NCBI GenBank assembly: GCA_003116975.1
Contig: BGKB01000020.1
Coordinates: 434,001-498,000 of the forward strand
Direction: 5' to 3'
Length of the DNA stretch: 64,000 bases
From: Aurantiochytrium sp. KH105
Lineage: Eukaryota; Sar; Bigyra; Thraustochytrida; Thraustochytriidae
Positions 18,360 to 29,399 of this stretch are shown one piece after another. The stretch's first letter is position 1, and every line of letters starts with the position of its first letter. Under the pieces are notes generated by a model. It had not been told where the DNA came from, did no database searches, and worked only from the letters and a program-made list of their open reading frames with translations. The translations under genes and the position numbers were made by a program.

Positions 18360-19550
18360 GGTGGCTGTTTTTCTCGTTCGGGTTTCAATCTAGTAATTTG
18401 TAAATCGCTTTGTCTGTTTGCCTGCCTGTCTGCCTGCTTGCCTGCAAGCAATCAAGCAAGCAAGCAAGCAAGGCGGCCAGCCAGTCAGCCAGCCAGCTGC
18501 AGCTAGCTAGCGAACCAGCCAGTCAGCCAGCCAGCCAACCAGCCAGCGCAGCAAGATGAGATGCTACTTCGAATGATCTCGCCTATTATCTGCTTTGCCT
18601 CTCGTCCACCGCGCTGGCGGTCTTCACGAGTTGTGTCCTATGCAGGTACACCAGTAGACCGCGTAGCAAGAGCGCGTGTTCTATCCTTGCATGCTTATCA
18701 CTTGCTTTCCTAACTTGACAGTGCCTACGCTTTCAACTTGCTTCTACTAACTCTTGTGAGCATGTGGACGGTCTCCCCTCCCCTGTCAACAAAGTTCCCT
18801 TGCTCCGCCCGTGCGCTGGTGCTCCTGGGTCCTGGGAGCCCGACCCCAGGGTGGTGGGTCCGCGCCCAAGTCCGCGCCGCTCGCTGACCATGGGCTGCCC
18901 AAGGAACAGAACGCGCTGATTAGGAACGAGACACCCAGACAAGGTCTCCTTGCCGCGGCGGAAACCTTGTGAACTTTATTATATCAGATTTAACTTTCAG
19001 AACATAATAAGATTGTAACTACGATACACAATTATAAGAAACTCAACGGATATCTCGTTCTGTCTATTGTTTGTGTGTCTCACTTGCTTGCGCGCGGGGC
19101 GCGGGATAAGGAGGGCGATGCGGACGAGAACGAGGAGGAGGACGAGGTTGAGCGCGAGCAACAGAAGACGTCGCGGAGGCCATCTCTCGAAGGAATCGAA
19201 GGCCGCCCGGCGGGCCAGGGCAAGTCTCTCTCTTGCGCGCGCGCGTCTGAGAGGGAGGTGGCGCCGAGGGAAACCGAGACGAGACGCAGGAGACCGCGCG
19301 GTCAACAAAGGTCAACGAGCAGCGCAGCCTTGCTAGCGGCGCGGACAAAGTGGAGGCCTCTGCGCGGGGGACGAGCAAGGAGCAACGAGAGCACTCGCGA
19401 GCTACTTACGCGCCGCGAGCGACGCAAAGGCATCACGGTCAAGAGGGCGCAAAGTATCGCCCCGGTCCATGCACGAGAAGGTCGAGCACTTGATCCGACA
19501 GTGAAGTAGCGTGCAAACGCAGTTGCACACGTGATTACAACCAACCAAAA
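18360..19550. repeat. Divergent spacer of two flagellar genes, with tetranucleotide tracts
   Basis: 18411-18550 holds compound tetranucleotide tracts: CCTG/CTGC units, CAAG units (about 18446-18472) and CCAG units (about 18476-18545). They lie just upstream of the WD40 gene start. 18560-18950 is unremarkable, and 18960-19050 is AT-rich. The part up to 19550 is GC-rich with open but unconvincing frames. It is probably the shared regulatory region of the WD40/EF-hand and RSP3 genes. Confidence 0.75.
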
Positions 19551-20720
19551 ATGTCGCAGCAGACGTACACCTTCTCAGCGAAGCCGACGCCTGTGCAGGC
19601 GGGACGCAAGGCGCGTGGCGGCTATCGTCAAGATGATGATGATGCGGTCGACAGCGTGAATATCATGTATGATCGCCGCGTGTACCGCGGAAGCACGTAC
19701 TCAAGCCATAGCAAAGGCAAGGCAGACTTGCTGCGACGTGGCCCCGCGGGTGGTCGAGCGCGTGGCAAGGGAGCGAGCCAAGCTCTCGAGCAAGCTTCGA
19801 AAGAGAGCACGTCCTTTCCCATCTCGGGCGAAGCCCCTGAGCCCGGATTTGGACGCCGCGACATGGATGTGCAGACTGAAACCTACCTCGAAGAGCTCAC
19901 CGACAAGGTCCCCGAGACAGAAACGGAGACGCAGACTGACCCGTTCATGGACCGTCCCTCGTTGCCTCTGTTTGTCCCGTTCAAGACGGGCATCGACGCT
20001 GAGACCCAGGTGGAAGTGGATGAGCTATTTGACTTTGACGCCGAGGTGGAGCCCATCCTAGAAGTCCTCGTGGGTAAGACCTTGGAGCATGCCATGATGG
20101 AGGTACTCGAAGAGGAGGAACTTGCTGCTCTTCGTGCTCACCAGGAAGACTTTGAACAGCAACGAAACGTGGAGCGGGCCCAGGTACAGCGCATGGAAGC
20201 GGAGGCGATTCGTCGCAACGAGGAAAAGGCCCGGCGCTTCGAGCAAGAAAAGGCGCGCAAGGCCCGAGAGGCAGAGGTCGTCGACAAGGTGGCGGCACGC
20301 GCTTTCGCCTCAGACTATTTGTCAGACTTGCACAATAACGTCTTTGACAAGCTCATGGAGAGCGGCGAATTTTACGATCCGATCATCAAGGAAGTCGAGG
20401 ATGACTTTTTGCCGTGGCTGGTCACAAGTGTCCAGGGCCGTACAGACGCGCGTCTGGTGGCTTGCAAGCTGGCAGATAGTCTCGTGCGACGTGCGCTTGG
20501 GAGGCGAAGGGAAATTACACAACAAAGGAAAGACGCCATCGCCGCAGCTCGGGCTGCGGCCGAAGCTGCGGCGGAGGCGGAGGCAAAGGCGATTGCTGAC
20601 GCCGAGGCTGCGGCTGCAGCTGCAGAGGCCGAGGCACTCCGTCTTGCTCAAGAGGGAGAGGAGGGCGACGACGTGGATGTTGATGCATCACAAGAAGAGA
20701 ATCTGGTAGGAGAAGAGTAG
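19551..20720 (+). CDS. RSP3: Radial spoke protein 3
   Basis: 389 residues, start MSQQTYTFSAKP. RSP3 is the dimeric backbone of the axonemal radial spoke that anchors the spoke to the doublet microtubule and, in other species, binds the protein kinase A regulatory subunit. Family features visible: NIMYDRRVYRGSTYS near residue 40, the RRDMDVQTETYLEELTD region, TETQTDPF, and the amphipathic helix VEPILEVLVGKTLEHAMMEV that matches the AKAP-type anchoring position. A charged coiled-coil follows (RNVERAQVQRMEAEAIRRNE), then the conserved FASDYLSDLHNNVFDKLMESG block. The tail is Ala/Glu-rich and acidic. Length is close to the algal protein minus some of its C-terminal extension. Its presence implies a motile flagellate stage. 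Confidence 0.93.
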   Translation: MSQQTYTFSAKPTPVQAGRKARGGYRQDDDDAVDSVNIMYDRRVYRGSTYSSHSKGKADLLRRGPAGGRARGKGASQALEQASKESTSFPISGEAPEPGFGRRDMDVQTETYLEELTDKVPETETETQTDPFMDRPSLPLFVPFKTGIDAETQVEVDELFDFDAEVEPILEVLVGKTLEHAMMEVLEEEELAALRAHQEDFEQQRNVERAQVQRMEAEAIRRNEEKARRFEQEKARKAREAEVVDKVAARAFASDYLSDLHNNVFDKLMESGEFYDPIIKEVEDDFLPWLVTSVQGRTDARLVACKLADSLVRRALGRRREITQQRKDAIAAARAAAEAAAEAEAKAIADAEAAAAAAEAEALRLAQEGEEGDDVDVDASQEENLVGEE

Positions 20721-20890: not shown

Positions 20891-21928
20891 TCAATTATAG
20901 TCACTATCTTCCTCCATCGCTCGCACATCGCTATCCACATCATCCTCGTCTTTACCAAGAAAACGCTCGTCATCCACACTTTCGTCTTCTCCAGGATCGC
21001 TTATTCGTTGGCCTCGCCTCGACGCCTTATTTGGGGTTCGATTCGATCGTTTTAGTGATGATTTACGATGTGACGCTGATTCCTGTTCTTCCTCATCCTC
21101 TTCGCCGTCGATGTGGCGTCCACGACGATTCCCTCTCACGCCTGAACGATGAGGATGGTGCGCGTCCTTGGACGTCTGATTTCGAAGGGCTGAACGCGGA
21201 CTATCCTCGCCGCTTTCTGGTTCTGCCGATGCGAGCTGTGCGGGTAGCCCTCTTTCTTCGTTGTCTCCATCATCATCATCATCATCTTCGTCTTCTTCTT
21301 CTCCTTCTTTTTCTTCAAATGCGAGCTCATCGACAAGGGTGTTCATTCGATTGTTTAAAGCAAGAAGAGCAAACTTGACCTTTGCCATCTCGTCATTGAC
21401 GAGTTCCTTGACAAGCGACTCCATGCTCTTTTCAGTTGCGAGATCTGCTGCCCAGCGGGCCCGCGCATTTGCTACTTCGCGACGAACGAGATCGCGAATG
21501 TCCGCGCGCCCTGGCATGTCTGGTGCGTGCGCATGTTTAAGACCGCCTGTGGGCAAAGTAGGCGAGGTGGGGACAGAAGCAGTTGTTCGTTTGCGCTTGA
21601 GGCTGCGCGCCGTGCGCGACGGGCGCCCGTGCTCGTCTTCGAGGGACGAAGCGATTCGTGGGATCTCGTAGACGTGGACATCTCCGCGACTGACAACGAG
21701 GACGTCCGAGTCGACGAGAACCTTTCCCAGCGGCGTTTTGCACGCTGCGCACTGCGCTTTTCTACAAGGTCCTTCCTCTCGTCGTCGTGGGTCGTCGTAC
21801 AGCTGCGCCGAGAGCTCGAGGCCGCGGCAGACCTGCACTTGGAGGAGCGTGCTCGAGCTCGCGGGCTCTTCCGCAACACTGTGGCCCACAATCTTGCTGC
21901 ACCCGGGGCACTGCACCACCGCCGCCAT
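20891..21928 (-). CDS. Mis18/Yippee-fold protein with acidic C-terminal region
   Basis: 345 residues from the ATG at 21928 (MAAVVQCPGCSKIVGHS). The N-terminal about 95 residues have the two CxxC pairs of the Mis18/Yippee zinc fold: CPGC near residue 7 and CAAC near residue 70, the second followed by KTPLGKVLVDSD and then a beta-rich HVYEI end. Mis18 proteins license CENP-A loading at centromeres, and plain Yippee and cereblon-type proteins share the fold. A helical segment follows (SLVKELVNDEMAKVKFALL), matching the coiled coil that Mis18 uses to oligomerise, then an acidic tract of Asp and Glu and an Arg/Ser-rich tail. The coiled coil after the fold favours Mis18 over Yippee, but this is not certain. 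Divergent from the Zn2Cys6 fusion gene. Confidence 0.68.
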   Translation of the reverse strand: MAAVVQCPGCSKIVGHSVAEEPASSSTLLQVQVCRGLELSAQLYDDPRRREEGPCRKAQCAACKTPLGKVLVDSDVLVVSRGDVHVYEIPRIASSLEDEHGRPSRTARSLKRKRTTASVPTSPTLPTGGLKHAHAPDMPGRADIRDLVRREVANARARWAADLATEKSMESLVKELVNDEMAKVKFALLALNNRMNTLVDELAFEEKEGEEEDEDDDDDDGDNEERGLPAQLASAEPESGEDSPRSALRNQTSKDAHHPHRSGVRGNRRGRHIDGEEDEEEQESASHRKSSLKRSNRTPNKASRRGQRISDPGEDESVDDERFLGKDEDDVDSDVRAMEEDSDYN

Positions 21929-22769
21929 CGTCGCCTCCGTCTCCGCGCCACCGCCGCCCGCGCGCCCTTCCTCGCCCGCTCGCTTCGAGCGATATCTGGC
22001 TGGCTTGGTCACCAAGTTTTGATCGACGCTTCTCCAAGGTCGTTAAGTGGACAACCCATTTCCACATTCCATCCTCTAAGAGCAAGCTCGAGTCTAGCCC
22101 TCTCCTACTCTAAACCCTAGAACCGCCCTCGAAACGGAACAGCGTTCCGTTCTCTTCACAACCACTGCTGGGTCCACTTTTTAGAATTTTCCACACCCCG
22201 ACAGGGAGTACGCCTGGAGTTTCGCGGGCCCTGGGCGCGGCGGGGCCGGCGCGCGAACAGGGGCGTCGGCGGCGGGCGGGGCTGGGGACTCGCAGAGGGC
22301 CCCCCGGGCGGGGCGCCGCGGGAATCGGGAATTCCCCGGAGGCGGCGTCGGCTAAACCGGCGCGGATGGGGCCAAGGGGAGGAAGCAGGAGGGCGGAGAA
22401 AAGAAGAAAAAGAGGGCGGGGAGAGGGAAGGCGCGAGCAGGGTAGACCCCGAACAGCTCGAAGAGCGGCAACCGCGGCGCGGAGGCGAGCGGCGTGCGGG
22501 CGAGCGAGCGAGCGAGCGGCGCGGGCGGGCGGGCGGGCGGGAGACGGGGCCGAGGCCGCGGCGCCGACGCGGAGCGCCCCGCGTGGGCCGGAGAACGCGC
22601 CGCTGACGGAGGGCCGGAAATCGGACGCGGCGACGCGGCGCGGCGCGACGCGGCGCGAGCTGCTGCTGGCCCAGCGCTTGCTTTGCTTTACCTTACTTTG
22701 GATACCTGACGTGGCGGGAGGGTCGGCGAGCGGGACCGGCGGCAGCAGAAGCAGCAGCAGAAAGTGACG
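21929..22769. other. CpG-rich divergent promoter
   Basis: 840 bp between two divergent starts, very GC-rich from 22200, with GCGAGCGAGCGAGC and GCGGGCGGGCGGGC runs near 22500-22540. The minus frame is open through here but is a composition effect. No gene called. Confidence 0.5.
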
Positions 22770-23594
22770 ATGGAGAATGATATGATGATGGGTTCGGGTG
22801 TGATGCACCAGCAGCCAGACATGGGCCAGGGGCCGAACGCGCCGCCACCACCGCCGTATCACGACGGGCAGCAGGATCCCCAGCAACAGCAGCAGCAGCA
22901 GCATCATCACCACGTGGGAAATCCGGTCACCACGGTGCGCAAGACTTCGTGCGACATGTGCACGCAAATCAAGGTCAAGTGCTCGGGCGAGACGCCATGC
23001 AAGCGGTGCGCGAAAAAGGGTCTCGAGTGTGTCTACTCGCTGTCGAAAAAGCGCGGTCCTCCCAAGGGTAAGAAAAGAAGCATGACAATGAACAAGCGCA
23101 TTCGCGCGCACAAAGACTCGAGCTCTGAGCCCTCGGGCATGGGTCACGTGCAGGCGCAGCATTTCACGCCGACGCAATTTGCTGGTGGTGTCACGCTCGA
23201 GGCGATCCGAGAGCGCGTGCAGGTATTCAGCGACCAGCGAAACTGGGAACAGTTTCACACGCCACGAAATTTGGTGCTTGCACTGACGGGCGAGGTCGGC
23301 GAGCTGGCATCTATTTTCCAGTGGAAAAACAACATTCCCCCAGGTCTGGGCGACTTCACACTCAAGGATCGCGTTCGTGTCGCCGACGAGCTTGCCGATA
23401 TCCTTATCTACACGACCCGTTTGGCAGATCGCTGCGGCATTGATTTGGCAAACGCCACGCTTGAAAAGATCCAGAAAAACGACATGAAGTACCCCAAGGA
23501 CAAGAGTATGGGCTCGAGCAAAAAGTACACAGAGTTCGATCCAGCCATGCAGGCTCACACGCAGCCGCACGATAACTCCGGGGGCCTCATCTAG
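22770..23594 (+). CDS. Zn2Cys6 DNA-binding domain fused to dCTP pyrophosphatase (MazG-like)
   Basis: 274 residues from the ATG at 22770. Residues 1-55 are Met/Pro/Gln/His-rich with seven or more Gln and four His in a row. Residues 61-87 form a Gal4-type binuclear zinc cluster with spacing C-x2-C-x6-C-x5-C-x2-C-x6-C (C61, C64, C71, C77, C80, C87), followed by the basic linker KKRGPPKGKKR typical of such regulators. After a short linker, residues about 141-255 match DCTPP1, the all-alpha enzyme that hydrolyses dCTP and modified dCTP analogues: TLEAIRERVQVFSDQRNWEQ, FHTPRNLVLALTGEVGELA, FQWK, DELADILIYTTRLADRC and SSKKYTE. The metal-binding acids are present (E175, E178, E207, D210). Both halves lie in one uninterrupted frame, so this is a real fusion unless the assembly is wrong. 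Confidence 0.88.
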   Translation: MENDMMMGSGVMHQQPDMGQGPNAPPPPPYHDGQQDPQQQQQQQHHHHVGNPVTTVRKTSCDMCTQIKVKCSGETPCKRCAKKGLECVYSLSKKRGPPKGKKRSMTMNKRIRAHKDSSSEPSGMGHVQAQHFTPTQFAGGVTLEAIRERVQVFSDQRNWEQFHTPRNLVLALTGEVGELASIFQWKNNIPPGLGDFTLKDRVRVADELADILIYTTRLADRCGIDLANATLEKIQKNDMKYPKDKSMGSSKKYTEFDPAMQAHTQPHDNSGGLI

Positions 23595-23915: not shown

Positions 23916-25463
23916 TTACATGTACGATCCTCGAACACGCCGCTGGGTTCGCCTTTCCAATGCTCGAGCTTGCCGCTTAGAAATCGCGCGAAGCTTGGCC
24001 AATCGCATGCGATACATGGCTTGGATCCGTATGCAAGCTTCGAGTCGCGTGCGCTGCCACTCGCTCTGTAGCGAACGGAAGAGAGCAATTTTTATTGCGT
24101 ACGCTTCGACACGTGCTCGCCAGAACCTCTGCAGTACGCGCGCTGCATGCTGCCGCCTCGCTTTGGCGACAGCGAAGACTTCCCGCGCAACACATCCTCG
24201 CCAAGCGAGCTGAATGCGAGTTGCAGCCCGCGCATCTGCGGCACGACGTTCGGATCCAATGCGAAGCAGTGCCCGACGTGCAAAGCGTTGTGCGCGAACG
24301 ACCATAATTTCGGCAACAATCACGGATGACCATGTATGGAGCGTCGAACGCAAAGCTCGTGTAGCCCAACATGCCACAAAGGGCACCAAGACAGCCCGCA
24401 ATTTTCTGCGCTGCGCTACAAAGCGGCGCCAGACATTCCAGCTGCGATGCAAACGCGCAGCGAAGCGGTGCTGGCGAAATCGCGCATGTCTGTCCTCGAC
24501 CAGACGAGCTCTTCTGTCGAGAAAGATCTTCTCGGCAAGGGCCTTGGGCAAAAAGTATCGTTCCCACGCACAGAGAAGTTTAGCTTTGGGCGCTTCTTGT
24601 TGCGTCATTTGCGACTGACCGAAAAGCTCCGCAAGGTTTTCACGCAAAACCTTTGTAAAGTCGTCTCGCGATATACGTCCCTTGACACGATCTGCAAGGG
24701 AGGCGCCTTGACGCCATGCGGGGTCGATCACACTGAGCAGCTCGCGGAGCTGATCAGCATTCCCGACGCCGATCGTTAAAAGAGCCTCATAATCGCGCTT
24801 TTCAAGAAAGTTGGGAGCATAAATGTCAAAGAGATCTGAACGTAGGCGACGTCTGGCGGAGCCACGTTTCGCGTGGCAGAGTTGCGCGGCGGCGACAATC
24901 TCGCGCGCATCGAGGTCGTCGAGCTCAAAGACAATGACGCCGCAACGAAGGTGCTGCATCGCAGCAAAACCCTCAAAGACTTCTTGCGCTGCTGCGCGAT
25001 TAACTTTTCCGCTTTGGGTGACCAGATCGACAAAGGCACTTCTTGCAATATGCCCGGGCTCGTCCTGGGCATTTGCGACGCCCGCAGCTGCGGCGACAAT
25101 GGAGGCGCGGGCTTCGGCGGCATCGCTTGCGGCAGAAGCGGACGCAAAGGGCTGGCGCGCCGGCGCATGTGAATTTAGTCGCGAGCGGTAGCTCGTGGTG
25201 ATGCCGGCCTCGAGCGTGCGAATTTCTGTCGCGAGACTGGGTGTTTCAAGCAATAGCGTCCATCTCCTCGCGGCGAGCTTTTCGAGGCGAGCCCGGAGTT
25301 CCTCGTCGCGGGCTCGCGCCACTTCGGCGAGCTCGCCTGCGGCATATTTTGTCAAGTTCTGTTTGCGCGCTCGAAGTTGCGCAAGTTCGCGCGCCTCGAA
25401 GCGCTCGCGTTGGTCGTTGTAGTCGAACCACCGGCCTTTGGCGAGGCCTTTTGAGCCGCGCAT
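23916..25463 (-). CDS. IQ-motif protein, probably calmodulin-binding
   Basis: 515 residues from the ATG at 25463. The N-terminal third is an Arg/Ala/Glu-rich coiled-coil (RERFEARELAQLRARKQ). The centre has a domain of unknown type around LVTQSGKVNRAAAQEVFEGF and GVIVFELDDLDAREI, with an EF-hand-like flavour but no canonical calcium loop. The C-terminal 120 residues carry at least three IQ-like motifs: ATRIQLAWRGCVAREVF, ARVLQRFWRARVEAY and CIRIQAMYRMRLAKLR. IQ motifs bind calmodulin or related light chains. No motor or kinase domain is visible, so this is likely a cytoskeletal or ciliary adaptor. Confidence 0.65.
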   Translation of the reverse strand: MRGSKGLAKGRWFDYNDQRERFEARELAQLRARKQNLTKYAAGELAEVARARDEELRARLEKLAARRWTLLLETPSLATEIRTLEAGITTSYRSRLNSHAPARQPFASASAASDAAEARASIVAAAAGVANAQDEPGHIARSAFVDLVTQSGKVNRAAAQEVFEGFAAMQHLRCGVIVFELDDLDAREIVAAAQLCHAKRGSARRRLRSDLFDIYAPNFLEKRDYEALLTIGVGNADQLRELLSVIDPAWRQGASLADRVKGRISRDDFTKVLRENLAELFGQSQMTQQEAPKAKLLCAWERYFLPKALAEKIFLDRRARLVEDRHARFRQHRFAARLHRSWNVWRRFVAQRRKLRAVLVPFVACWATRALRSTLHTWSSVIVAEIMVVRAQRFARRALLRIGSERRAADARAATRIQLAWRGCVAREVFAVAKARRQHAARVLQRFWRARVEAYAIKIALFRSLQSEWQRTRLEACIRIQAMYRMRLAKLRAISKRQARALERRTQRRVRGSYM

Positions 25464-26138
25464 GGCCCATCACCGCGGACCGACAAGCTTCTGCGCGTCC
25501 GATGATCCTGCTTTTCGCGACTGTCCCAGGATGACTCGAACTTGACTCGGTCGCTCAGCGGCCTGTAGTACAATGGTTGGTCAACGGCCAAGAGTCGCAA
25601 GACTGGTTTCTCTGCAACTGCAAAGAAGAATGAAGAAAGGGGATCGTCACATGTCGAGCGCGACCGAGCTTGTCACGGTGGGCATAATGCGAGCTGATCT
25701 TCATATCTTGAAATCGAGATGTCAACCACTACGCGAGCGACAGCGGGCTACTTGATGATTTCTTGCGAAACAGGGGAACAACAGCATATAATAAATAGTG
25801 ATTTGACGCATTTTGAGACATATCTACAGCAAGATGCATGAAGCGATCAGACCTATTCAGCTGGTCTCGTCGTTGCGTCTTGTGCTCGTCAAGCGTCGTG
25901 TTTGGCATGCCTCCGTCGAGCTTCAAAGATTTCGGACATTTTCTTGCTATTTGGCGCTATGTGGTCTTTTGCCTGCAAGCTAGCTGACCAAAACCTGAAC
26001 GCGAACGAGCCCAGAACTCCGCCTTGCAGAGCGCACTGCACTGCAAAGACAGCGAGCGTCGGGCCTAGCGAGGCGACCGGCGCAGGGGCGAAACACATCC
26101 GCAACCCAACCGGACGCGCGGAGCACACGTTGACCAGG
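25464..26138. other. Divergent promoter
   Basis: 675 bp between the IQ-protein start and the nuclease start. A tRNA-like piece near 25557 was looked at and rejected. The nuclease frame is open through the right part from 25902, with an alternative ATG at 25959 that would add 60 residues. Confidence 0.45.
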
Positions 26139-29100
26139 ATGGCTCAGACATCAGCGTCGGCAGCGTTGACAGCGTCGGCAGCGTCAACCTCTGGACATTC
26201 AGAGGCACTGCAGATGGCGCTCGTGCAGCTGCGCAAGGCCGACTGGAGCGACGAGGAGGCGGTGAGGAAAGAGGCCCGCGCCGCGCTCGCCGCGTTACGT
26301 GATGTTGGCTGCAAAGGTGACAAAACGAGCAAGTCAAAGGCAACCAAAAAAGCTAGCGCGACCCAATGGATGAACCGCCGCGAAGCGTTGCGCGTGGGAC
26401 TCGAGCAACTCGTACAGGAAGAGCTCGTGAAAACGGTAGTCCTCTTTGAGGAAATTGCTGATGCGCCAGCGTTTCAGGAACTTCTCTTTGTATGCTTGGA
26501 TGCCATGTCGCGCGCTTTGCAGCGTGCGACAAGTGGACGGGCAGAGACACTCGACGAGAATGCGAGCGTACGAGCGTTGGCGTTGTGCGACAGACTCCTC
26601 GAGAGGCGCCGTCAAGTTTATATCGCAGAGAACGCAGAAGGTATTCGAGACTCGCTGAGCGCCATTTCGGTATTACGCATTATGCAAGTCTATCGCGTGC
26701 GGGTGAGCCATGCTTCCGGGGCTGAGACCGCAACATGTGCGGTGGCACGATTTTATCGGCTCATGGAGCGACGCACGGAAATGAAAAAGAATGTCTGGGA
26801 GCGGGAGACTTCATTCGCAGTCAAAGAGCTCACGGAGCTAATCGTGCAATTTGACTTGGTGCGTGACGCCTCGTGGCCCGTCGACGTGGCTGATCTTGTT
26901 CGCTGCTGCGTAGAGTTGCACTGGTTCCAGCTCATGTCAAAACTCGTTGCTGCAGATTCGACAAAGGATCTTGCGCGTGTTTTTATTCGCACGGCATTAT
27001 CAATGAAACCGCCGAATATGTGGAAGGCCCATGGATGCATGAAGGAGTATCGGCTGGAGAGAGAATTTCCTGAGCTGGTGCAGGCCTTTCGTCGCGGATC
27101 GCTCGAGACATGCGCAGAAAAGGGCAAGCATGCCGAGCTCTTGTTTCGCCTGGAAAATTACCGAGACCCCAAGCTGACGGCGTTCGTCACAGGCCTGCTC
27201 GTCGATCAAGGCGAGCATTGGCTGGCGCAGCACCTCGCGGATCGGCTCCAATTGGCGCGCAATACACCAGAATATCTACGCATTGACCAAGAGACCGTGA
27301 AACAAATCGAACAAGAGCGGCAGCAAACTTATTTACGTCTGCCGCGTGAGATTGAAGCATCGATCGTCTTTGTCTGCACGGATGCGAGCGCTAATGAGGC
27401 TTGCGCATGGCTCGATGGTCTCGGTGCTTCAGATATTGTCGGCATGGACGGGGAGTGGAAAGCAAGTCTTAAGAGTGGACGCAACCTGGCAAGTGTCTTG
27501 CAACTTTCAAGCCGCGAACGCATTTTTCTCCTTGATTTGCTATGGCTTATGGACGCAGCAAACAAAAAGAAGACAACGATTGGCACGCCTGGTTCCAGCT
27601 CGTCTCGCCAGCTCCTTTGCAATGCTTTGCAACGGCTGTTTCGTCGTGAAGATGTAGTCAAGGTGGCGTATGGATTCTCATCCGACATTGATGTGCTTAC
27701 CAAATCATATCCGGGGCATTCATGTTGGCAGGCCATTTATTCACTGTTGGATTTCGCGCACGTTTCCGTCCGAGAGGAGGGATCGGGTCAGTGGGCTGCC
27801 TCGTATTGTCGCAAGGTGTCGCGCGGGCTCAAGGACGTGGTTTTACAAGTCCTCGGGAAGAAGTTGTCCAAGTTGGAGCAGCTCAGCAATTGGGAGGCGA
27901 GACCGTTGCGTGCGGGTCAGATGCACTACGCGGCTCTAGATGCCTATGTACTGACACAGATCGCGGATGCAGTTTTCCCGCCTTTGCAAGGAATTCCAAG
28001 TAAACTGCTCACGCGGCTCGATCATCAAGCTGTTCGATCACGGGATGGAATGGGACAGCACGGTGCGTCGCAAAAGGAGGCGGTGGTCAAGGGTCTTGAA
28101 GAGATGGACCTGTTTAAGAGTGCTGAGGCAGAAATGCGACGCCGGTGCGAGCAGTATGGCATTCGCTTTGTCGATTCCTTGGAGAGCAGCAACGAGCTTG
28201 AAGGGGCCGAAGTAAGAGTCATCAAGCTAGCGTCACCGATGGTGGCTGTCAAGAAAGTTGCCGAAGCGTTGGGTGTCGGTGAGGCGCAGGTGCTCAAGTC
28301 AATGGCGTACATGGTACATGAGGGCGCTAAGAGCTGGAAGCCTGTGATGGTGCTCGTCCGCGGCGACTCGAGCGTGAAAGAGGGCCAGCTTGCTGCGTGG
28401 GCGCAAACAATGGTGCGCCGCGCTTCAGGAGATGAATGTCAGCGTTTTTTCGGGCTCCCAGGTGGCGGTTTGGGTCCTGTCTCTGCGGTAACGCCCCGAT
28501 TCCAAGTTCTCTGTGACAGTGCCGTCAAAGAGGTGTCTGGCCCGGTGTATGCGGGTCTCGGGTCGCTGGAACGCATTGCTCGCTACGATAGCGTGAACAC
28601 TCTGCTTACAATTTGCGGCGATGCGAGGACGAGTGTGGCAGGTGTGTCGAGCAAAGCTGTGACCCAGCAGCCAACATTGCGTCCTATCTCTGCGCTGGAG
28701 ACCAAATTTCTGGTGGACAACATGCTGGGACGTCTTGGCAAGATAATGCGCATGGTGGGTCTTGATTGTACCAAGGTACAGGAGGTGCCAGGCGTTGAAG
28801 AGCTCTTGGCTGCTTCCGTGGCTAACTCGCAGGCCGCAAAGGTACCAATGAAGGAACAGACGGCGCGAAAGCGCGCGCAGTCACTTTTGCGCACCAAGGA
28901 GCTGAAGCTTGCTCTCGCAGCGGCGCGCGCGGAGCAGCGCGTTTTCCTCACGACTGACCGCAAGGTCGCGGAGATGTATCGAGAGGATGACGTAGTTCTG
29001 CTGGACAACTTCTCCAACAGGTATGCACAGTTTGATGAGGTTTGCAAACGCCTCGCCATCAAGCTTGACGCCGGGAGCTTTTTAACGCGTTGTATGATGT

Positions 29101-29399
29101 GCAATGGTCTTGGTTTTGACCGCATTGATCGCGAGGAGGTTGCTCGGCTCAAGAAGGAGGGCCATGTGTCGGTCGACCGCGTGCCCGACGACATTCTAGA
29201 CTCTGTCACGGAATTTTATCGTTGCAAGCAGCCCGAGTGCTTTCGTGTGTTTTGGGAGGGGCCCAAGTTTGACCACTGCTGGGAGCTTTACGAGACGCTC
29301 AAGCTTGGCGAGCAGCGCAGCGCGTCGGATCCCACGACAGCCGGAACCGCTGCTGCCAACAATGAAGTCGACAGTTCGACTCCGTCCTCTGCAATATAA
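26139..29399 (+). CDS. EXD3/mut-7-like nuclease: DEDDy exonuclease, YbaK domain, Mut7-C
   Basis: 1086 residues from the ATG at 26139 (an ATG at 25959 is possible). The first about 410 residues are helical. Residues about 415-620 form a 3'-5' exonuclease of the DEDDy type: GMDGEW (D, E), FSSDIDVL (D) and HYAALDAYVL (Y, D) are all present. Residues about 690-830 match the YbaK/prolyl-tRNA-deacylase fold (LGVGEAQVLKSMAYMV, LPGGGLGPVSAVTP). Residues about 850-1055 are the Mut7-C PIN-like ribonuclease: LVDNMLGRLGKIMRMVGLD, then RVFLTTDRKVAEMY, ending in a zinc ribbon with CMMC and CKQPEC. MUT-7/EXD3 and related proteins act in small-RNA or tRNA metabolism. The inserted YbaK domain is the odd part. 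YbaK proteins deacylate mischarged tRNA; whether this copy is active is unknown. Confidence 0.86.
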   Translation: MAQTSASAALTASAASTSGHSEALQMALVQLRKADWSDEEAVRKEARAALAALRDVGCKGDKTSKSKATKKASATQWMNRREALRVGLEQLVQEELVKTVVLFEEIADAPAFQELLFVCLDAMSRALQRATSGRAETLDENASVRALALCDRLLERRRQVYIAENAEGIRDSLSAISVLRIMQVYRVRVSHASGAETATCAVARFYRLMERRTEMKKNVWERETSFAVKELTELIVQFDLVRDASWPVDVADLVRCCVELHWFQLMSKLVAADSTKDLARVFIRTALSMKPPNMWKAHGCMKEYRLEREFPELVQAFRRGSLETCAEKGKHAELLFRLENYRDPKLTAFVTGLLVDQGEHWLAQHLADRLQLARNTPEYLRIDQETVKQIEQERQQTYLRLPREIEASIVFVCTDASANEACAWLDGLGASDIVGMDGEWKASLKSGRNLASVLQLSSRERIFLLDLLWLMDAANKKKTTIGTPGSSSSRQLLCNALQRLFRREDVVKVAYGFSSDIDVLTKSYPGHSCWQAIYSLLDFAHVSVREEGSGQWAASYCRKVSRGLKDVVLQVLGKKLSKLEQLSNWEARPLRAGQMHYAALDAYVLTQIADAVFPPLQGIPSKLLTRLDHQAVRSRDGMGQHGASQKEAVVKGLEEMDLFKSAEAEMRRRCEQYGIRFVDSLESSNELEGAEVRVIKLASPMVAVKKVAEALGVGEAQVLKSMAYMVHEGAKSWKPVMVLVRGDSSVKEGQLAAWAQTMVRRASGDECQRFFGLPGGGLGPVSAVTPRFQVLCDSAVKEVSGPVYAGLGSLERIARYDSVNTLLTICGDARTSVAGVSSKAVTQQPTLRPISALETKFLVDNMLGRLGKIMRMVGLDCTKVQEVPGVEELLAASVANSQAAKVPMKEQTARKRAQSLLRTKELKLALAAARAEQRVFLTTDRKVAEMYREDDVVLLDNFSNRYAQFDEVCKRLAIKLDAGSFLTRCMMCNGLGFDRIDREEVARLKKEGHVSVDRVPDDILDSVTEFYRCKQPECFRVFWEGPKFDHCWELYETLKLGEQRSASDPTTAGTAAANNEVDSSTPSSAI

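Follow-up and report, generated by a model that had tools for sequence, protein, structure and literature searches.

A Zn2Cys6 cluster and a DCTPP1-type MazG domain joined in one reading frame of Aurantiochytrium sp. KH105

The genome of the thraustochytrid Aurantiochytrium sp. KH105 (76.0 Mb in 367 contigs) contains a gene whose single reading frame, uninterrupted and with its stop codon included, encodes a protein of 274 amino acids. A Q/P-rich stretch at its N-terminus is followed by a complete Zn2Cys6 cluster, which a basic linker connects to a complete MazG domain of DCTPP1 type (table 1). The gene lies in a stretch of 64,000 nucleotides, C20:434001-498000, which is here called the window. 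The same frame is present in two allelic copies, both domains are complete, the catalytic acids are retained and this is the sole DCTPP1-type gene found. The first-pass annotation of the window had described a Gal4-type cluster with its KKRGPPKG linker, followed in the same frame by a MazG domain of DCTPP1 type, complete and retaining its four metal-binding acids, a description that is borne out by translation, Pfam and alignment with the mouse enzyme. It had also known of no such pairing, and within open-access text this holds: no report of a Zn2Cys6 cluster paired with a MazG or dCTP pyrophosphatase domain appears among the matches listed, in a search that may miss spellings such as Zn(II)2Cys6, and the combination of Zn2Cys6 with thraustochytrids, or with stramenopiles (PAS domain, transcription factor), gave no open-access text matches. 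The protein is a new domain architecture made from two known families.

To our knowledge, the way in which eukaryotic cells sense the levels of individual dNTPs and link them to gene expression is poorly understood. A sequence-specific DNA-binding domain and an intact dCTP pyrophosphatase combined in one protein would make a direct link between dNTPs and expression testable.

The reading frame and its two domains

An in-frame stop at 22707-22709 precedes the frame and ATG is absent from the interval 22500-22769, upstream of its start; the Pfam scan was run on the frame of 294 codons starting at 22710. Zn_clus is matched with an E value of 8.2e-11 (42.3 bits, cut-off 21), and the six cysteines, at positions 61, 64, 71, 77, 80 and 87, are spaced as C61-X2-C-X6-C-X5-C-X2-C-X6-C87 and followed by KKRGPPKGKKR, an arrangement that fits the consensus of Zn2Cys6 proteins, CX2CX6CX5-12CX2CX6-8C. 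Among PDB chains, those of GAL4 (E 1.1e-4), LAC9 and PPR1 match the cluster by sequence, and the DNA-bound Zn2Cys6 protein Pho7 appears at rank 35 of the Foldseek results as a weak match (probability 1.00, E 0.069, rmsd 10.3 A over 50 columns). The middle homology domain of fungal type, which is usual for Zn2Cys6 regulators without defining them, is not among the 7 Pfam families matched at E up to 1. The protein therefore shares with the Gal4-type regulators (GAL4, LAC9, PPR1, Pho7) the spacing of the six cysteines, the basic KKRGPPKG linker and the Zn_clus match, together with sequence matches to the first three, but differs from them in having a nucleotide pyrophosphatase as its other half and no middle homology domain among its Pfam matches. 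By its composition, the segment ahead of the cluster may resemble an activation domain. The linker behind it counts 11 K/R over residues 91-116, and its last third overlaps the beginning of the DCTPP1 homology.

Table 1. Coordinates of the fusion gene and its parts in the window
Feature	Position	Strand	Evidence
Zn2Cys6-DCTPP1 fusion frame	22770-23594	+	Translation, Pfam, allele on C131
Q-, P-, H-rich N-terminus	22770-22943	+	Composition; low AlphaFold confidence; 12-base in-frame polyQ length difference between copies
Zn2Cys6 binuclear cluster, residues 59-95	22944-23054	+	Pfam Zn_clus; PDB sequence matches; AlphaFold
Basic linker	23055-23189	+	Predicted disordered; NLS-like by eye
Internal ATG (M124)	23139-23141	+	Where DCTPP1 homology begins
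DCTPP1 homology region, residues 124-257	23139-23540	+	Ungapped alignment with mouse dCTPase
Four acids: E175 (23292), E178 (23301), E207 (23388), D210 (23397)	23292-23399	+	Alignment to mouse dCTPase
Pfam MazG-like match	23295-23534	+	PF12643

The second half of the protein matches the MazG-like profile with an E value of 1.5e-12 (48 bits, cut-off 27) and, in a phmmer search of the PDB, mouse dCTPase with an E value of 7.6e-33; the two proteins align without gaps over 134 residues, 60 of them identical. The four acids of the fusion protein correspond, again gap-free, to E63, E66, E95 and D98 of the mouse enzyme, in the motifs ExxE and ExxD, which we take, from the active-site residues known in DCTPP1 structures, to be the metal ligands. 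Identity extends to 23 of the 32 mouse positions compared, including, besides these acids, W47, W73, K74, Y102, K121 and N125, whereas H38, presumably a base-contacting residue, is replaced by V150. In the Foldseek search, mouse and human dCTPase chains occupy ranks 1-20, with E values from 2.3e-9. Hence, the likeness to mammalian DCTPP1, also called RS21-C6 (PDB 6sqw, 7mu5, 2oig), covers the fold, the residues identical with mouse, the metal acids and the six further equivalents just named; the difference lies in the Zn2Cys6 half and the valine for H38, the matched mammalian chains (110-170 residues) being devoid of a DNA-binding domain. NCBIfam has no family match for the fusion protein, and Rfam none within the window.

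An AlphaFold model of the monomer, computed with 42 aligned rows (mean pLDDT 77.2, pTM 0.50), predicts that both domains fold confidently and are connected by a disordered linker: pLDDT is about 96 over residues 61-90 and ranges from 90 to 97 over residues 141-250, except for 181-200 (72-77), and confidence is low for the linker and the N-terminus. In this monomer model, nothing points to an interface through which nucleotide binding could be passed on to DNA binding.

Two allelic copies of the fusion

The possibility of an assembly error at the locus, raised in the first-pass annotation, was checked and the fusion stands. A second copy on another contig (C131:96730-97566) has the same fusion, with 97% DNA identity and collinear flanks, ruling out an assembly chimera; both Zn_clus and MazG-like matches are paired on different contigs, as in a diploid assembly. 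Besides these, the DNA search gave five matches, 40-45 bases long, every one of which falls on the Q/H repeats.

Within the frame, 16 substitutions separate the copies, of which 14 are synonymous and two non-synonymous (pS 0.079, pN 0.003), and there is one 12-base in-frame indel in the polyQ tract. Synonymous and non-synonymous changes number 4 and 0 in the N-terminus, 2 and 0 in the zinc cluster, 2 and 2 in the linker, and 6 and 0 in the MazG domain with its tail. The segments of the frame diverge by 1.5-3.0% with a single, in-frame gap, compared with 10.0% (73/730 sites, 13 gap events) and 8.4% (26/309, 4 gap events) in the non-coding flanks; two neighbouring open frames, taken as a yardstick, diverge by 2.3% and 2.35%. 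Because the substitutions are mostly synonymous and the frame diverges less than its gapped flanks, every segment, the linker included, looks translated in the fusion frame. With its two amino-acid changes, the linker behaves as expected of a spacer that is disordered and under little constraint.

The linker deserves closer attention, for it is there that an intron or a read-through could join two genes whose mature proteins are separate, a reading that we consider very improbable. A GTAAG at 23068 lies within the linker, and the chance of 44 random linker codons staying open is 29%, which makes openness alone weak evidence for a fusion. The comparison of the copies speaks otherwise: over 23058-23189 the linker differs at 4 of 132 bases (3.0%) with no gaps, against some 12 changes predicted from the rate of the flanks, so that its divergence is roughly one-third of theirs and resembles that of the neighbouring open frames; moreover, the frame is the same in both copies. 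A chance open frame thus becomes very unlikely. We searched for in-frame introns of at least 31 bases whose donor, any of six pentamers, lies between 22770 and 23229 and whose acceptor has at least 10 pyrimidines in the 15 bases before it. Under these settings (in-frame acceptors, six donors) the GTAAG has no partner, and the single pair that emerged, 22935-23321, would cut out the entire cluster together with a portion of the MazG domain, which leads us to reject an intron concealing two genes. There would also be little room for a second promoter. Overall, we are far surer that the fusion is real than of what it does.

A related question concerns M124, which may be a relic of the ancestral start or an alternative start. 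The internal ATG (GGCATGG) stands at the beginning of the DCTPP1 homology, and it is conceivable that the locus yields, beside the long fusion, a second and shorter product, a dCTPase by itself that starts at M124, is transcribed from an internal promoter and does the enzyme work. However, from 22770 up to M124 there are eleven ATGs when all frames and the start itself are counted; leaky scanning to M124 is therefore unlikely, and the short form would require a promoter inside the gene. The changes in the N-terminus and cluster are, furthermore, synonymous only, which indicates that the long form is constrained too. We hold the production of two proteins to be unlikely.

Relatives of the two halves

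The genome contains 16 matches to Zn_clus, which form eight pairs on different contigs, the fusion pair included. When compared with six of the seven other pairs, the cluster of the fusion is identical at 28 of 44 positions (64%) with that of C10/C81 and at 24 of 44 with that of C14/C76; conversely, the C10 cluster used as query retrieves itself, its allele and then the fusion gene. In sequence, the zinc cluster of the fusion is similar to others in the genome, its nearest neighbours among those compared, all of which belong to this genome. The seven other pairs, of which C10/C81 and C14/C76 are examples, have clusters up to 64% identical and a similar basic linker, but differ from the fusion in that MazG matches never occur on their contigs. 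Four of them (C10/C81, C14/C76, C147/C96 and C170/C78) share, by eye, a common region behind the cluster with stretches such as GGFLPWGGD. The idea, also formed by eye, that this region is PAS-like was dropped, as Pfam, run on three of these four genes, has no match there.

For the MazG half, PF12643 and searches with the domain sequence retrieve from the genome the two allelic fusion copies only. The broader PF03819 matches five places, namely the two fusion copies, C17, C58 and a sub-threshold stretch on C123; C17/C58 constitute the other MazG pair over the cut-off, and C17 reads as HisIE (PRA-CH plus PRA-PH). A second DCTPP1 gene elsewhere in the genome was thus found neither with PF12643 nor with the domain sequence, a search that an intron-split gene could escape. 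Since the fused copy is the sole DCTPP1-type gene found, it probably does a housekeeping job too and would be under pressure to stay active. As to other enzymes of the dNTP pool, the genome has one dUTPase match and 17 matches to the cytidine/dCMP deaminase family, a broad family in which dCMP deaminase itself is not singled out. The dUTPase match (C139:83250-83636) is single, whereas those of Zn_clus and MazG-like are paired.

The first-pass annotation had proposed a phylogeny of each half. That of the MazG half groups it with mouse and human DCTPP1 (support 100/96), and the zinc cluster is placed by the comparison within its own genome given above. The tree has 81 rows, comprising 77 distinct sequences of 80 kept bacterial loci, one archaeal sequence, mouse, human and the window; its bacterial rows were picked for likeness to the window protein, and the grouping has to be read in the light of few columns, a long window branch, long branches that meet (possible false joins) and a eukaryotic sample limited, besides the window, to two rows. 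In BLAST, mouse (48.3%, 122 bits) leads the top bacterial row (46.6%, 112 bits) by a small margin. None of the frames of the 80 bacterial relatives kept of 194 found has the six-cysteine motif, one of these loci (L042) ending at a contig edge. On the strength of this absence and of a tree that sides with mammals, to which the same warnings apply, we reject a bacterial fusion or a recent bacterial origin of the MazG half. Three scans of viral contigs gave no relative of the fusion, and 15 phage records hold MazG-like proteins with 29.5-43.1% identity.

A precedent of sorts exists in fungal regulation. The repressors QutR and GaaX, which act on activators of Zn2Cys6 type, are reported to be akin to the final three domains of AROM; each is a protein of its own, and catalysis is thought to be lost in them (PMC6528562, PMC10512348). 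The present protein is like them in that an enzyme-derived module serves a Zn2Cys6 regulatory system, but here the connection is covalent and the active site appears intact. By analogy with these AROM-derived repressors, for which inducer binding is proposed in those papers, the protein could be a dedicated regulator whose MazG fold is just a dCTP-binding and oligomerization module, with catalysis lost or marginal. Yet the four metal acids and the majority of the compared mouse positions are kept, and no other DCTPP1-type gene that could supply the activity was found in the genome; we judge this loss of catalysis quite unlikely.

Possible functions and gene neighbourhood

How might a dCTP pyrophosphatase work when attached to a zinc cluster? 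The first-pass annotation had suggested either a transcription factor that senses nucleotides or a pyrophosphatase held on DNA. The explanation we favour, with a confidence about evenly balanced, is that the protein is an active, nuclear, DNA-binding dCTPase and likely also a nucleotide-responsive regulator. Judged from its sequence, the layout comprises the parts of a regulator, i.e. Q/P-rich N-terminus, cluster and basic linker, but the place of a ligand-sensing domain is taken by what looks like a functional enzyme. A DNA-binding module similar to the ones encoded by other Zn2Cys6 genes in this organism would have been placed ahead of the start of a eukaryotic DCTPP1 gene, and translation from the first ATG would give one bifunctional protein. 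Its MazG half would still hydrolyse dCTP and modified dCTPs and would form a tetramer, as DCTPP1 does, displaying several zinc clusters on flexible basic linkers. Clusters and linkers would bring the enzyme into the nucleus and onto DNA sites of CGG type. As this is the only dCTP pyrophosphatase found, occupancy by dCTP, or its turnover, could be coupled to the location of the enzyme on DNA, and through such coupling the protein would most likely also tune the transcription of nucleotide or replication genes to the level of dCTP. Various points stand against this favoured reading: both amino-acid differences between the copies fall in the linker, an internal M124 is present, H38 has become V150, no middle homology domain is among the Pfam matches, no interface is seen in the model, the tree carries warnings and the cluster is matched weakly by fold. 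A stronger version of it, in which a one-component, dCTP-sensing transcription regulator is also the only dCTP pyrophosphatase of the cell and reports the level of its own substrate to promoters, is put forward as a tentative possibility.

The protein may alternatively regulate no genes, its cluster and linker holding the dCTPase in the nucleus or on chromatin, where dCTP or 5-methyl-dCTP would be cleansed near replication. This tethered enzyme would agree with the retention of the catalytic acids in the sole DCTPP1-type gene found, with the basic linker and with the absence of the fungal regulatory domain from the Pfam matches; however, a Q/P-rich N-terminus with a complete cluster suggests the layout of a regulator, and a plain NLS would be enough for nuclear entry. 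We consider a tether without regulation doubtful. The probabilities attached to all five readings are matters of judgement.

Human DCTPP1 is described in nucleus, cytosol and mitochondria, its loss unbalancing dCTP, dTTP and dUTP (PMC7162842). Should the favoured explanation be true, Zn2Cys6 clusters outside fungi would be joined to catalytic domains and a house-cleaning enzyme would be placed on DNA instead of being left free in the pool, so that control of the dCTP pool could move onto the chromosome.

Regarding the neighbourhood of the gene, a divergent frame at 20891-22042 (-) has a sub-threshold Yippee-Mis18 match (E 4.8e-4, 20.7 bits, cut-off 26.6), and the interval that separates it from the fusion gene might act as promoter for both. 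Downstream lie an open frame of 517 codons at 23916-25469 (-), with IQ-like basic stretches by eye and no Pfam match at E up to 0.01, and a large open frame at 25842-29396 (+) that combines a 3'-5' exonuclease, an aminoacyl-tRNA editing domain and a Mut7-C RNase domain, in this order. On the other side, 19494-20720 (+) encodes Radial spoke protein 3 (E 1.9e-86), a gene of the flagellar axoneme. Elsewhere in the genome, open frames of 1318 aa with a phytoene-synthase match on C211 and C268 are consistent with the fused CrtIBY of thraustochytrids; for Aurantiochytrium sp. KH105, the genome report describes a duplicated genome, RNA-seq data with a browser for the genome, and CrtIBY as one fused gene (1,268 aa; PMC5924542).
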